Virus record (IMG/VR): IMGVR_UViG_3300025099_000006
Span: 1 to 37,878 of that record
DNA length: 37,878 bases
Source of the DNA: a virus
Reading direction: 5' to 3' (one strand)
Shown here: positions 276 to 31,444 of the stretch, piece by piece
Layout: the number at the start of each line of letters is the position of its first letter
How positions within the stretch are numbered: the stretch's first letter is position 1
Made by a program: the position numbers and the translations under genes
The notes under the pieces: generated by a model
What the model saw: the letters and a program-made list of their open reading frames with translations, nothing else
Databases searched by the model: none
What the model was told of the DNA's origin: nothing

Positions 276-1487
276 TTATAAACTAGCCACCATATCTAAA
301 GTTTTAGCATCCTGGTAATTACTTAAAGCAATCACATGAGCATAAACTCTCTCAGTAGTTGCGATCTCCTGGTGTCCAAGAAACATTGAGATCTTTTTAA
401 GATTATCTCTTGAGTCACCATCAGTTAAGATCAGTTTACTAGCAACATAATGTCTTAGGCTGTGCCATGTAACTGGAATAGCTCCGCTTAATTTAATAGC
501 TCTTTTTAAAATGTATGCAAGAGTATCGTAAGAAGCTAACTCACCTTCGTAGTTATAAGATGATGTATTGTTAGCTCTAGCCCCAGCTCTAAATCTTTCA
601 CCATATCTGATAAAAACTTCTTTATCTTCCTGGCTGTATTTAGTTTCCATCTTCCAAGACAATAATGCTTTTTTAAGATCTGGATTAAGAGGAATCTTTC
701 TACCAATCATGGCTGTACTTTCTCTTAACTTATCAGCTTTAGTTCCCTCGCCTTCTGATATGTTTTTATTGATAGTAATAACATCATTATCAAAATCAAT
801 ATCAGACCATGTTAAAGCAAGTTGCTCACCAGCTCTCATGCCAGTCTTAACAGCCATCAAAAACATTAGCTGCGAAAATGTATCATCAAAAATATTTTCT
901 TGGATCAATTGAATGTTCTCTTCGGAGATACTTTGAATATCAAATTTCTTTGAATCATTTTGAAATAAAACAGATACCATTTTATGAACAGTAGGCTTCG
1001 TAGAAATAAAATCTTCTGTCTGACACCAAACAAAAAATCTCTCTAAACATGAGTGATGATTTTGAATTGTCTTCCTAGATCTGCCTTTAGATTTATTATA
1101 CCTATAAAAATCTGAAACATCACTAGCTCTAACTTCGTCACAAATCATTTTGCCAAGATCATACTGTTTTAATAATTTACCGACATAGGTATATCTTTGA
1201 TACCTATCTGTTGTCATCTGGTTAGAGTCGTACAAAGGGTTAATATCTTTTTGCAAGAAAAGAGAATAAATATTATTTACAGATTTCTTATTCGCTTTAG
1301 GTACAATCTTGTTATTAACTTTTTGCTTATAAATATCTCTAGCAGTTGCTTCGGCAAGATCCCTAGTTTTAAAATGCGTATTTCTATATTCAGCATTTAA
1401 AGTTTGGTCTTGAAAAGAGACATGCCATGAAGCATGCCCCTTTTTTGATCTAGTTTTTCTTTGTGTAATTTTATAAGGCACTCTCAT
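276..1487 (-). CDS. int: Tyrosine-type site-specific integrase
   Basis: Catalyses recombination between attP and the bacterial attachment site. Residues below are numbered from the ATG at 1490. The catalytic domain contains the first arginine in TGMRAGEQLALTW (R219), the H-x-x-R box in TWHSLRH (H343, R346), LGH (H373) and the nucleophile in RVYAH (Y383). A lysine near 265 may be the beta-hairpin lysine. Residues of about 1-70 fit an arm-binding domain and 75-185 a core-binding domain. Length (about 403) is normal for phage integrases. The ATG at 1487 is preferred over 1490 because AGGAGG lies five bases upstream of it but only two from the other. The gene lies next to a tRNA-like attP core and ends at a terminator. 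Confidence 0.97.
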   Translation of the reverse strand: MRVPYKITQRKTRSKKGHASWHVSFQDQTLNAEYRNTHFKTRDLAEATARDIYKQKVNNKIVPKANKKSVNNIYSLFLQKDINPLYDSNQMTTDRYQRYTYVGKLLKQYDLGKMICDEVRASDVSDFYRYNKSKGRSRKTIQNHHSCLERFFVWCQTEDFISTKPTVHKMVSVLFQNDSKKFDIQSISEENIQLIQENIFDDTFSQLMFLMAVKTGMRAGEQLALTWSDIDFDNDVITINKNISEGEGTKADKLRESTAMIGRKIPLNPDLKKALLSWKMETKYSQEDKEVFIRYGERFRAGARANNTSSYNYEGELASYDTLAYILKRAIKLSGAIPVTWHSLRHYVASKLILTDGDSRDNLKKISMFLGHQEIATTERVYAHVIALSNYQDAKTLDMVASL

Positions 1488-1514
1488 CATTTCCTCCTAT
1501 ATGTTAATTGATAT

Positions 1515-1535
1515 GTTTGACTTACAAAGACAAAC
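1515..1535. promoter_or_regulatory. Operator-like inverted repeat upstream of the integrase
   Basis: GTTTG (1515-1519) and CAAAC (1531-1535) form an inverted repeat 25-45 bases ahead of the integrase start. The left part, GTTTGACTTA, is identical to the left part of the palindrome at 33545-33560 over the regulator promoter. I infer a shared repressor or regulator site; no binding data exist here. Confidence 0.45.
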
Positions 1536-1600
1536 TAGATCACTATAGCCGTACCTGTCAAGAGGGGAAATTTCCGAGCTTCGTGAATTAGCGGAAAATA

Positions 1601-1626
1601 TAGCGTCACGGAGAGCGTCACGGAGG
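1601..1626. repeat. Tandem 12-mer, candidate integrase arm site
   Basis: Two perfect copies in tandem of the 12-mer AGCGTCACGGAG (1602-1613, 1614-1625). A related pair lies on the other side of the tRNA-like core at 1777-1800. Direct repeats on both sides of the core are what arm-binding sites of lambda-type integrases look like. Confidence 0.65.
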
Positions 1627-1668: not shown

Positions 1669-1713
1669 TGGCAGTCCCTAGGGGAATCGAACCCCTTAAC
1701 TAGCGTTTTGTAG
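1669..1713 (-). other. attP: attP core: 3' half of a tRNA gene
   Basis: Read on the minus strand, this is a 5-pair T-arm with the canonical loop (stem AGGGG, loop TTCGATT, stem CCCCT), a seven-base acceptor 3' strand AGGGACT, a G discriminator and CCA. The 5' half of a tRNA is absent, so it is not a functional tRNA. Phages that integrate at tRNA genes carry exactly such 3' halves to rebuild the gene. The A1-U72 acceptor end, G73 and a loop reading C-T-x-C-A-A-A resemble tRNA-Trp; the isotype is a weak inference. It lies between repeat pairs at 1601 and 1776 and beside the integrase. Confidence 0.8.
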
Positions 1714-28890: not shown

Positions 28891-29385
28891 TTAAGCTTTT
28901 GCATCAAGCAAAATGTTTTCTATCTTTTCGTTAGGAGACATTTCAATTTCATCGCCTGGAATAAAACCTTGCTCACTAGCTTGTGCAATAACTTGATCGC
29001 CTGTTGCACCATCGGTAATACCAAAAGCACCAGCATAGGCTACTGGAGTTGGTGTCATTAATCCCATCGGACCAGTGACAATTGTACTCTTCCTGGAAAA
29101 CCTTCTCATCAGCATTTCTTTTGTTCTTTGAACCATATCTTTATAACGAATGACTGTATCTGGAGCTATAGTCTCTCCTTCATTAATCATGGCTGGATCT
29201 ATTGGATCCCCAGCATTTAACATAATGCTTTCACCAGTTGTTGGATCTGTGAAAGATTTCTTTTCTGAATATGGAGTTGTGTAGGCATCCACCTTTGGTG
29301 CTACTGGATCTGTCTCCAAAGGATTACTTGGATTAGCTTGCGCTTGTGAATCCACTGGAACATATACTGTCTTTGTTTTAGCCAA
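28891..29385 (-). CDS. Hypothetical protein linked to terminase (164 aa)
   Basis: Starts at a TTG that overlaps the last codons of TerL by eight bases, with AAAGGA about nine bases upstream. The N-terminus is Pro/Ala/Asp-rich; residues 85-120 hold a basic patch followed by RKSTIVTGPMGLMTP, similar to short motifs in podovirus proteins encoded between terminase and portal. The C-terminus is acidic. No catalytic motif is seen. It may be a minor head or packaging protein. Confidence 0.65.
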   Translation of the reverse strand: MAKTKTVYVPVDSQAQANPSNPLETDPVAPKVDAYTTPYSEKKSFTDPTTGESIMLNAGDPIDPAMINEGETIAPDTVIRYKDMVQRTKEMLMRRFSRKSTIVTGPMGLMTPTPVAYAGAFGITDGATGDQVIAQASEQGFIPGDEIEMSPNEKIENILLDAKA

Positions 29386-30679
29386 TTGCTTTCATCCTTT
29401 TATCAGATCCCAACGGATCCCATTTATTATCAGCAAAACTTTGTGGAGCTTGCTGGACTTGTTGTTGTTTTAAACCGACTGCCATATACCGAAATGCATC
29501 CGCTCCGTGGCTGGTCCAATCGTGGACTGGCGTGGCTCGGAAAGATCTGGTCCTCTCATTGTAAGCTCGGTGATAATGCCGAAGAGCTTCGATACCATCT
29601 TTGCAATTTTTGACATCGAACATGCACCTGGGAAGCATCATCTTCACAGCATGAATGCCATCCTCTATTGGCAATTTCGGAACAACCCTAAAATTAATTC
29701 CTAGATCGTAGGCAACCTCTCTTCTGGATCTTCCTGTACCAAGTTCACGGACCTCAATATCATGTGGTGCGTTGTGTGTGCCGTACAAATATTCTTTATC
29801 TTCCAGGACACCAACAAAATGCGGAAGCCCCTCGTTTCTTACTTCATAATAATCAATAACAGATACAGCCCCACCTCTGGATGTTTGTGCAAACCATATG
29901 GCAGTGCTATCGTTAAGACCAAGATCCCAGTAGGTATCAACCCTAAGAGAAGGATCGTAAGGGCATGTTGTAATTTTTCCATCTTCTTGTAACTGTTCCA
30001 TCTCGGATCCAAAAATAGATCCTGGAATATTGGCTACCCAGCTACACTCAAACTCCTGATTGTATTGATCTGGAGACATAGTTTGTGATGCCTGGCGTAA
30101 TTCCTCTTCATCTAATATATTTGTTTCACTAGCCTTATACAAAGCCGTATACCACTCAGGCTGTATTTCTCCATTCTCATAAAGATCATAAAACATATTG
30201 TGTCCTTTAGGAGTTCCAATAAAATAACAAAAACCTTTTCTATCCGATAGAGCTGGTCTGATAACTTCTGGAAAGACACTCTCTGGCATGTCAGCGACCT
30301 CATCGATAACACAACCATCTAAATATATACCTCTAAGACTGTCTGGATTTTCCGATCCTAGGAGAGTTATTCTTGCTCCATTCGGAAGATCACATCGCAA
30401 TTCTGTTTCATTAAATTTTATATTCGGAATCTTACTTGTAAATTGTTTTATATAATCCCATGCCACTGATTTAGCTTGTCTGTATGTGGGAGCTACATAG
30501 GCAAATCTTGGATTTTTTTTATCGCTAAGAATGCTTGCTCGTAGTAAATGATTTATAGCCATAACAGTCTTGCCGAATCTTCTATGGCAAACTATTACAG
30601 CCCATCTATGATTGTCTAACTCCGTATGCAGATCATTCTGCAAAGGTCTGGGAGTATAGGGTATGATAACCTCAGTCAA
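29378..30679 (-). CDS. terL: Terminase large subunit
   Basis: Motor and nuclease for DNA packaging. ATPase: Walker A CHRRFGKT (31-38), Walker B CVIDE (123-127), coupling motif FIGTPKGHN (about 153-161). Nuclease: TYWDLGLNDSTAIWF (about 250-264), an Asp in HDIEVREL (about 309) and the C-terminal HDWTSHGADAFRY (about 390-402), giving the acidic triad. The start is TTG with GAGGAG nine bases upstream; no ATG is better placed. Length (433) is on the short side but all motifs are present. The gap upstream (30680-30906) holds the AGCGTCAC repeat pair. Confidence 0.96.
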   Translation of the reverse strand: MTEVIIPYTPRPLQNDLHTELDNHRWAVIVCHRRFGKTVMAINHLLRASILSDKKNPRFAYVAPTYRQAKSVAWDYIKQFTSKIPNIKFNETELRCDLPNGARITLLGSENPDSLRGIYLDGCVIDEVADMPESVFPEVIRPALSDRKGFCYFIGTPKGHNMFYDLYENGEIQPEWYTALYKASETNILDEEELRQASQTMSPDQYNQEFECSWVANIPGSIFGSEMEQLQEDGKITTCPYDPSLRVDTYWDLGLNDSTAIWFAQTSRGGAVSVIDYYEVRNEGLPHFVGVLEDKEYLYGTHNAPHDIEVRELGTGRSRREVAYDLGINFRVVPKLPIEDGIHAVKMMLPRCMFDVKNCKDGIEALRHYHRAYNERTRSFRATPVHDWTSHGADAFRYMAVGLKQQQVQQAPQSFADNKWDPLGSDKRMKAIG

Positions 30680-30764
30680 TGTGTGTGTCTCCTCAATGGG
30701 TTTATAACGATATAGGAAGGGACCGCAAAGTTCTTGGGGGTACGCCTTAGGTTTTTCGTAGGAT

Positions 30765-30790
30765 TAGCGTCACAGAAAGCGTCACGATCA
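30765..30790. repeat. Third AGCGTCAC repeat pair, at the terminase locus
   Basis: AGCGTCACAGAA (30766-30777) followed by AGCGTCACGATC (30778-30789). The 12-base phasing and the AGCGTCAC core are those of the attP-flanking repeats at 1602-1625 and 1777-1800. Here it lies in the 227-base gap between terL and the 43-residue gene. Options are a second integrase or excisionase site, a packaging site or a control site. The rest of the gap shows no gene. Confidence 0.55.
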
Positions 30791-30906
30791 TTTTATTCCC
30801 ACAGATCTGCCAATATTAAGGGGAACCATACCCCTCAGATCTGTCAGCAATCGCATGCGCGCATAGAAAGCCGACACGCACCGCATTGCATAACCATCAT
30901 AGCCAC

Positions 30907-31038
30907 CTACAGTAATGTATCCCTTGGTCTAGCATATCCATACTTGCTTGGTCTTCCACCCAGGTCTACTGGTCCTTGCTTCTTCTTATTGCTTTGATCT
31001 GTTGTTGGCTTAACACCTGGTGGTAATAGATTATTCAT
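30907..31038 (-). CDS. Small hypothetical protein (43 aa)
   Basis: A 43-residue frame starting MNNLLPPGVKPTTDQSNKKK and ending in GRPSKYGYARPRDTLL. It begins seven bases after the TerS stop on the same strand and fills the TerS-TerL gap. The GRPSKYG stretch is like the start of some DNA-binding small terminases, but there is no HTH. The ribosome site is weak (GGGTAA). It could be a packaging accessory protein. Moderately supported by position and composition. Confidence 0.5.
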   Translation of the reverse strand: MNNLLPPGVKPTTDQSNKKKQGPVDLGGRPSKYGYARPRDTLL

Positions 31039-31045
31039 GTTGAGC

Positions 31046-31444
31046 TTACCCATCTTCATTGCCCCATCGAATAGTTATCTCACCACTGTCTTGCTTGTCC
31101 TCTACCTTGTTACGCAAAGATCCTCGTGGCTGCAGTTGAGTCCTTCTCTTATCAAGCCAATAGGACATCTTATCCCTTCTTAATATCTCTGTATGCTTCT
31201 CTTTAACATCTATTGGATAGCTCTCATTCCACATGTCTAACAGTTGGTCTGAGATCTTCTCAGCTTGTAATGCTCTAGCCTTCATATACTCTTCAAAGTT
31301 CTCGTCACTGTCTTGCACATGGCGTAGAACAGTCCTGTCCGAAGGCATGCCATCGTCAGTACAGATCTGTCTTAGACTCTCACCATCTATGATGCGATCT
31401 AAGATCTCTTTAAATGTTGTCTTGTTAACTCTTGCTTTAGCCAT
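31046..31444 (-). CDS. terS: Terminase small subunit, Sf6-like
   Basis: 132 residues with an N-terminal HTH of the Sf6 TerS type: FKEILDRIIDGESLRQIC followed by GMPSDRTVLRHV. Then comes the oligomerisation stretch with YMKARALQAEKISDQLLDMW, and a basic C-terminus (LDKRRTQLQPRGSLRNK). It recognises the phage DNA and hands it to TerL. An Sf6-like TerS usually goes with headful packaging; this would fit circular permutation and the circular contig, but is inference. It is coupled to the upstream 46-residue gene (stop/ATG adjacent). Confidence 0.9.
   Translation of the reverse strand: MAKARVNKTTFKEILDRIIDGESLRQICTDDGMPSDRTVLRHVQDSDENFEEYMKARALQAEKISDQLLDMWNESYPIDVKEKHTEILRRDKMSYWLDKRRTQLQPRGSLRNKVEDKQDSGEITIRWGNEDG

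Follow-up and report, generated by a model that had tools for sequence, protein, structure and literature searches.

In phage lambda (arm-type sites P1, P2 and P'1-3) and in pairs of the L5/Tn916 type, short paired repeats flank the core of the attachment site and are read by the N-terminal domain of the integrase. To our knowledge, the known arm sites of lambda-type systems all lie within the att region. The viral DNA analysed here (the whole stretch of 37,878 nucleotides, called the window, a virus contig that carries a terminal repeat of 126 bp) likewise has short paired repeats flanking the core of its attP. Unlike lambda, it has an additional pair 8.6 kb off, between terS and terL, that co-evolves with the attP arms. 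In KplE1, the arm-type site of the integrase is an operator, and IntS represses its own promoter (PMC2951348). The KplE1 operator coincides with the att region and acts on int, whereas in the window the candidate operator is a separate site before the terminase and late genes. P2 Cox, 186 Apl and directionality factors of the RdfS type (RdfS: PMC11963761) have a similar habit, in which one recombination protein uses phased repeats at att and in a regulatory region elsewhere. These proteins are small winged-helix excisionases, whereas the evidence from the window points to the integrase itself. Elements that use XerCD and dif (IMEX) provide a further parallel, as dif is found in the same slot of integrase-less relatives of the window. 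Unlike IMEX, the window phage encodes an integrase, and the repeats in its slot are of the arm type and lack a core. For P22, whether packaging or excision comes first is a tuned trait (PMC8575938). The open-access literature that we searched contained no integrase arm-type site beside terminase genes. Read as an integrase arm-type site outside att, the pair in the terS–terL gap is without precedent in that literature.

The gap pair is made of two 8-bp half-sites, GTGACGCT TTCT GTGACGCT in the sense of terL (30766–30785, minus strand), and its sequence suggests an integrase arm-type site. On the plus strand, AGCGTCAC occupies 30766–30773 and 30778–30785 with a start-to-start distance of 12 bp, which is also the phasing of the attP pair. 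The first-pass annotation of this DNA had noticed the repeat and its attP-like phase, and we found both copies, at 30766 and 30778. The distances to attP that it gave, 29 kb or 8.6 kb across the join, were correct. The pair sits outside the att region; the 8.6 kb distance excludes membership of attP, and the pair is an arm-type site outside att. No tRNA-like core was found in the gap of the window, so no strand-exchange core lies beside the pair. Six exact copies of AGCGTCAC are present in the whole window against 0.38 expected, a number that none of 100 shuffles reached. Exact 12-phased pairs occur in the 37.9-kb circular phage only at 1602–1621 and 30766–30785, and the same number of shuffles gave no such pair.

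The pair lies in a non-coding post-terS region of 227 bp (30680–30906) that is conserved in relatives; the non-coding gap before terL had been described earlier and was confirmed on rereading the window. It is bordered by terL, the terminase large subunit gene, with a TTG start (29378–30679, minus strand). At the other end, an ORF of 48 aa (30907–31053, minus strand), which is kept in close relatives, separates the gap from terS, encoding an Sf6-type terminase small subunit (31046–31444, minus strand). Three elements of the gap were given labels coined in this analysis (A, E and F); they and a hairpin-like sequence are listed here on the minus strand. Element A (CGCGCATGCGATTGCTGACAG, 30841–30864) is an almost invariant block toward the terS end of the gap. 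The hairpin-like sequence AGGGGTATGGTTCCCCTT (AGGGG-loop-CCCCT, 30818–30835) has a stem that is constant and a loop that is variable among relatives. Element E (GTACCCCCAAG, 30733–30743) is a C-rich box found in all relatives, and element F (TATATCGTTATAAAC, 30702–30715) is a TATA-like box before terL. About 80 gaps share one order: element A, the slot for the pair, box E, box F and the next gene. In the window clade the hairpin comes before the slot, in most other gaps after it. Of about 30 phages, most have the start of the pair 179–185 bp upstream of terL; in the window clade it lies 103–107 bp upstream. The orientation of the pair is uniform inside each clade. Judged by its sequence, element F is a possible late promoter; a sigma-70 promoter scan of the gap gave nothing above chance. 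The spacing between the pair and box F varies by clade, and a single rigid promoter geometry is therefore unsupported. In L387, 1.3 kb of additional ORFs lie between the gap and terL, which indicates that the slot is part of the post-terS region.

The core of attP, as read from the sequence, is the 3' end of a tRNA gene (TTCGATTCCCCTAGGGACTGCCA, about 1669–1697, minus strand), and arm repeats lie on either side of it. The pair adjoining int is GTGACGCT CTCC GTGACGCT (1602–1621, minus strand). The far arm (1777–1807) is AGCGTCAC GGAG AGCGTCAT plus an inverted copy, with AGCGTCAC at 1777–1784, AGCGTCAT at 1789 and the inverted copy at 1800–1807; this arm was absent from the first-pass annotation. 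The tyrosine integrase (276–1490, minus strand) contains both the catalytic tyrosine recombinase domain and the core-binding domain, and its N-terminal ~62 aa are proposed to be an arm-binding (AB) domain. A model of the whole chain gave its best alignment with Tn1549 Int, and lambda Int aligned over residues 6 to 399. The AB domain modelled alone is strand-strand-helix (pLDDT 83), and a PDB structure search with it gave no confident match; the name that we propose for it is based on its position, on the covariation and on the alignment of the whole-chain model with lambda Int. The arm pair adjoining int is located ~110 bp upstream of the int start (window 1490–1621). By analogy with KplE1 IntS, the integrase may repress its own gene through that arm pair.

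Close relatives were retrieved through TerL and through a conserved gap block. Their terS–terL gaps carry a direct repeat phased at 11 or 12 bp, the letters of which differ between phages and, on contigs that include both regions, match the arm sites of the phage's own attP. In the sense of terL, the gap pair is GTGACTCC/ACGACTCC in L113, GCAACAC twice in L115, GCATCAAC/ACATCAAC in L118, GCAACAAC/ACAACAAC in L230, GCATCGCA/ACATCGCA in L119 and TCATCAAT twice in L123; L118 and L230 differ by an identical substitution in both half-sites. Half-sites within a phage agree at 6.8 of 8 positions, compared with 4.2 when shuffled between phages (0/20,000), and the columns of the pair are less conserved than the flanks. 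Own attP arms equal the gap pair in G003 and G006 (GTGACTCC), G005 (GCAACAC), G011 (CGCATCAACA..TACATCAACA) and G020. The match is also seen in distant relatives with other integrases (G035, G041, G045, G057, G058, G064, G071, G074, G076, G080, G082 and L387). Over 20 phages, the match between the gap and the own attP has a mean of 15.1/16 against 11.8 when permuted (maximum 13.4; 0/200,000 permutations), and the own attP ranks first in 18 of the 20. This scoring allowed mixed phases between gap and attP, as a demand for equal phase under-scored G045. The whole-genome scan for further pairs that had been proposed as a check found none: in eleven (near-)complete genomes of 32–38 kb, the pair is present at attP and in the gap only. 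That chance recurrence is unlikely had been argued from the phased copies, and both the shuffles and the ranking bear this out. The window by itself would have left room for a stray duplication. The covariation in 18 of 20 phages refutes both chance and a stray attP copy, a reading whose probability is practically nil. The site is real, and it is conserved as a position and not as a sequence.

The letters of the pair follow the N-terminal domain of the integrase and not the terminase. TerS and TerL are 100% identical in the window and G003, whose attP arms and gap pairs differ; their integrases are 69% identical in the AB domain and 84% in the rest. TerL is also 100% identical with different pairs in L262/L189, L263/L264 and L171/L187. 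A packaging site proper, read by TerS or TerL with a secondary likeness to attP, would suit the location between terS and terL. This reading, a form of the packaging site that had been put forward, is contradicted by the constant proteins under changing pairs; TerS and TerL are ruled out as readers on the strength of window and G003, and we give the idea very little chance. The replication site suggested at the same time is without support. The broader proposal, of one DNA-binding protein that connects attP and the terminase region, has strong support, and the protein to name is the integrase, acting through its N-terminal AB domain.

Within single integrase families, the changes are concentrated in the AB domain. 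Between G058/L371 and G064/L373, it is 89% identical and the rest 97%, and the pairs are GGGTCACA and GCATCACA, respectively; L371 and L373 differ at few positions within the first 57 residues. The integrase bodies of L371, L374, L375 and L376 are 93–98% identical, and the first 57 residues of the latter three are 63–68% identical to L371; the arms are GGGTCACA, GCGCGCCTA, GGGCGCCTA and GCGCGCCTA, respectively. Where the second strand begins, the residue tends to go with the bases: K is found with GG, W with GCA or GGA, and H with CG or GTG. L379 is one of the exceptions. L377 has DTR-Y and ends in CCTAA, and L386 has DTR-S and ends in CCAAA, a Y/S change matched by a T/A change.

The phased repeats to which P2 Cox, 186 Apl and similar excisionases bind lie both at att and at promoters. 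This habit would fit a second phage protein, for example an excisionase, that reads the attP arms and the gap, with the integrase covarying by linkage. Against it, the letters track AB-concentrated changes within one integrase family, including the Y/S with T/A change of L377 and L386. The repeats also lie on both sides of the core, as integrase arm sites do, and integrases that lack the AB domain mostly go with gaps that lack the pair. We regard a second protein as quite improbable. Integrases of about 355 aa in G084, G085, G086 and G088 (L334, L336, L337 and L338) are such cases: they have no AB domain (by protein alignment in G085, by length and start in the other three), the gap has no pair, and no arm pairs are recognisable upstream. 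On contigs of at least 31 kb, the pair is present in 12 of 13 phages with an AB integrase and in 0 of 6 without integrase (p = 2.6e-4, from a table compiled by hand; the latter contigs may be incomplete). Relatives that keep the attP repeats and lose the repeat near terL had been named as evidence against a link; the linkage is generally kept, and G091, with attP arm pairs and no gap pair, is the one clear exception. G042 has a loose match only. G036 and G037 (L153 and L154) keep a GTGGACA gap pair with an integrase that lacks the AB domain, and their contigs have no second pair.

Relatives in which we detected no integrase have a XerCD dif site in the same slot. The pattern, CGCATAA-N6-TTATGTTAAAT, is exact over 18 defined bases at ten loci in the post-terS gap of tailed phages (L124, L127, L133, L134, L137, L139, L147, L156, L159 and L167); several of these are short contigs on which integrase absence is unreadable. 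No dif site was found in the gaps of integrase phages, the window included. The dif sites in the slot probably serve as attP in relatives that integrate through Xer. An integration event at dif would cut the post-terS region in two, possibly a second route to the same end.

We consider it fairly probable that the gap pair is a site of the phage's own integrase, read through the AB domain and kept by selection in the terS–terL control region, which it would gate. Binding of the integrase to the gap pair is what we infer from the covariation. The integrase would contact the pair through its N-terminal AB domain, as at the attP arms. When abundant, either while lysogeny is being established or while excision is incomplete, it would occupy the gap pair, and the occupied pair would keep the late/terminase operon or packaging initiation off. 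That late transcription or packaging initiation is gated at all, and that the sign is a block and not an activation, is our hypothesis. In these temperate marine phages, integration is probably coupled to late or packaging functions. The N-terminus of the integrase is hypervariable on a near-constant body in L371, L373, L374, L375, L376, L377 and L378, and the pattern resembles immunity-group diversification. A more far-reaching version, which we hold to be doubtful, makes the integrase a specificity-determining regulator of the late/terminase genes, with the gap pair as its operator and the AB diversification as a reflection of immunity-like competition between related prophages. If true, superinfecting phages that share the gap pair of a resident prophage could be blocked by its integrase.

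The gating proposal has to be weighed against two other uses of a bound integrase. The integrase could license packaging by masking pac in the gap, so that headful packaging waits until the integrase departs or excision takes place and the host DNA is spared in situ packaging. The Sf6-type TerS and the Erf-like annealing protein suggest headful packaging in the window phage and fit a P22-like cycle, and the placement of the pair between terS and terL also fits. In P22, packaging precedes excision (PMC8575938), which shows that the order matters, and the region between terS and terL would be divided by integration in the dif phages. Against licensing, the packaging mode is deduced from genes, the contig ends gave no start-site mark, and the extra ORFs of L387 stand between the gap and terL. 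A cos site in the gap receives no support from the contig starts near terL, which fail to coincide (a weak indicator). We treat licensing as a tentative option, clearly behind gating in probability. The integrase could also bridge the gap and attP in an architectural role, the loop controlling recombination, for example by sensing a circular genome or an idle late region. An arm-type pair without a core would serve such a role, bridging of distant sites is typical of such integrases, and the clade-constant orientation is in keeping with it. The loop would, however, span 8–9 kb or more, no known integrase requires such a remote site, and the fixed spacing to terL suggests a tie to the downstream genes. 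An architectural site is unlikely in our estimate.

A megablast search of phage records with the terminase half gave no match, and a search of genome contigs by TerL alignment gave two distant matches only, so that neither a prophage nor a host was found. Among cultured phages, none with such a gap pair was found. The full annotations of the isolates HTVC010P, HTVC034P, HTVC106P and Venkman, with TerL identities of up to 59%, list no integrase; in HTVC034P, a protein gene abuts terL and the gap is missing. The terL neighbourhoods of seven other isolate records, for which gene tables were used, show no integrase beside terL. Related integrases among phage records are below 60% identity.

Gating by the own integrase would suggest a direct wire from the integrase to the late/packaging control region, retained in many phages while the DNA word and the integrase change together time after time. 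It would also give a testable explanation of how a phage that has no lambda-like CII circuit may prevent a collision of integration and late functions, and the dif-carrying relatives would show the same arrangement in another, independent form. The covarying pairs would amount to a natural code by which the arm-binding domains of integrases recognise DNA, and arm sites of integrases could be called from the sequence alone. A scan of viral contigs with a 20-base pattern returned 108 stretches, of which L070 and L087 (same integrase) were used and the rest went through an automatic repeat scan only. Five unrelated viral contigs (L004, L006, L015, L036 and L039) carry two or three AGCGTCAC pairs in steps of 24 bp.
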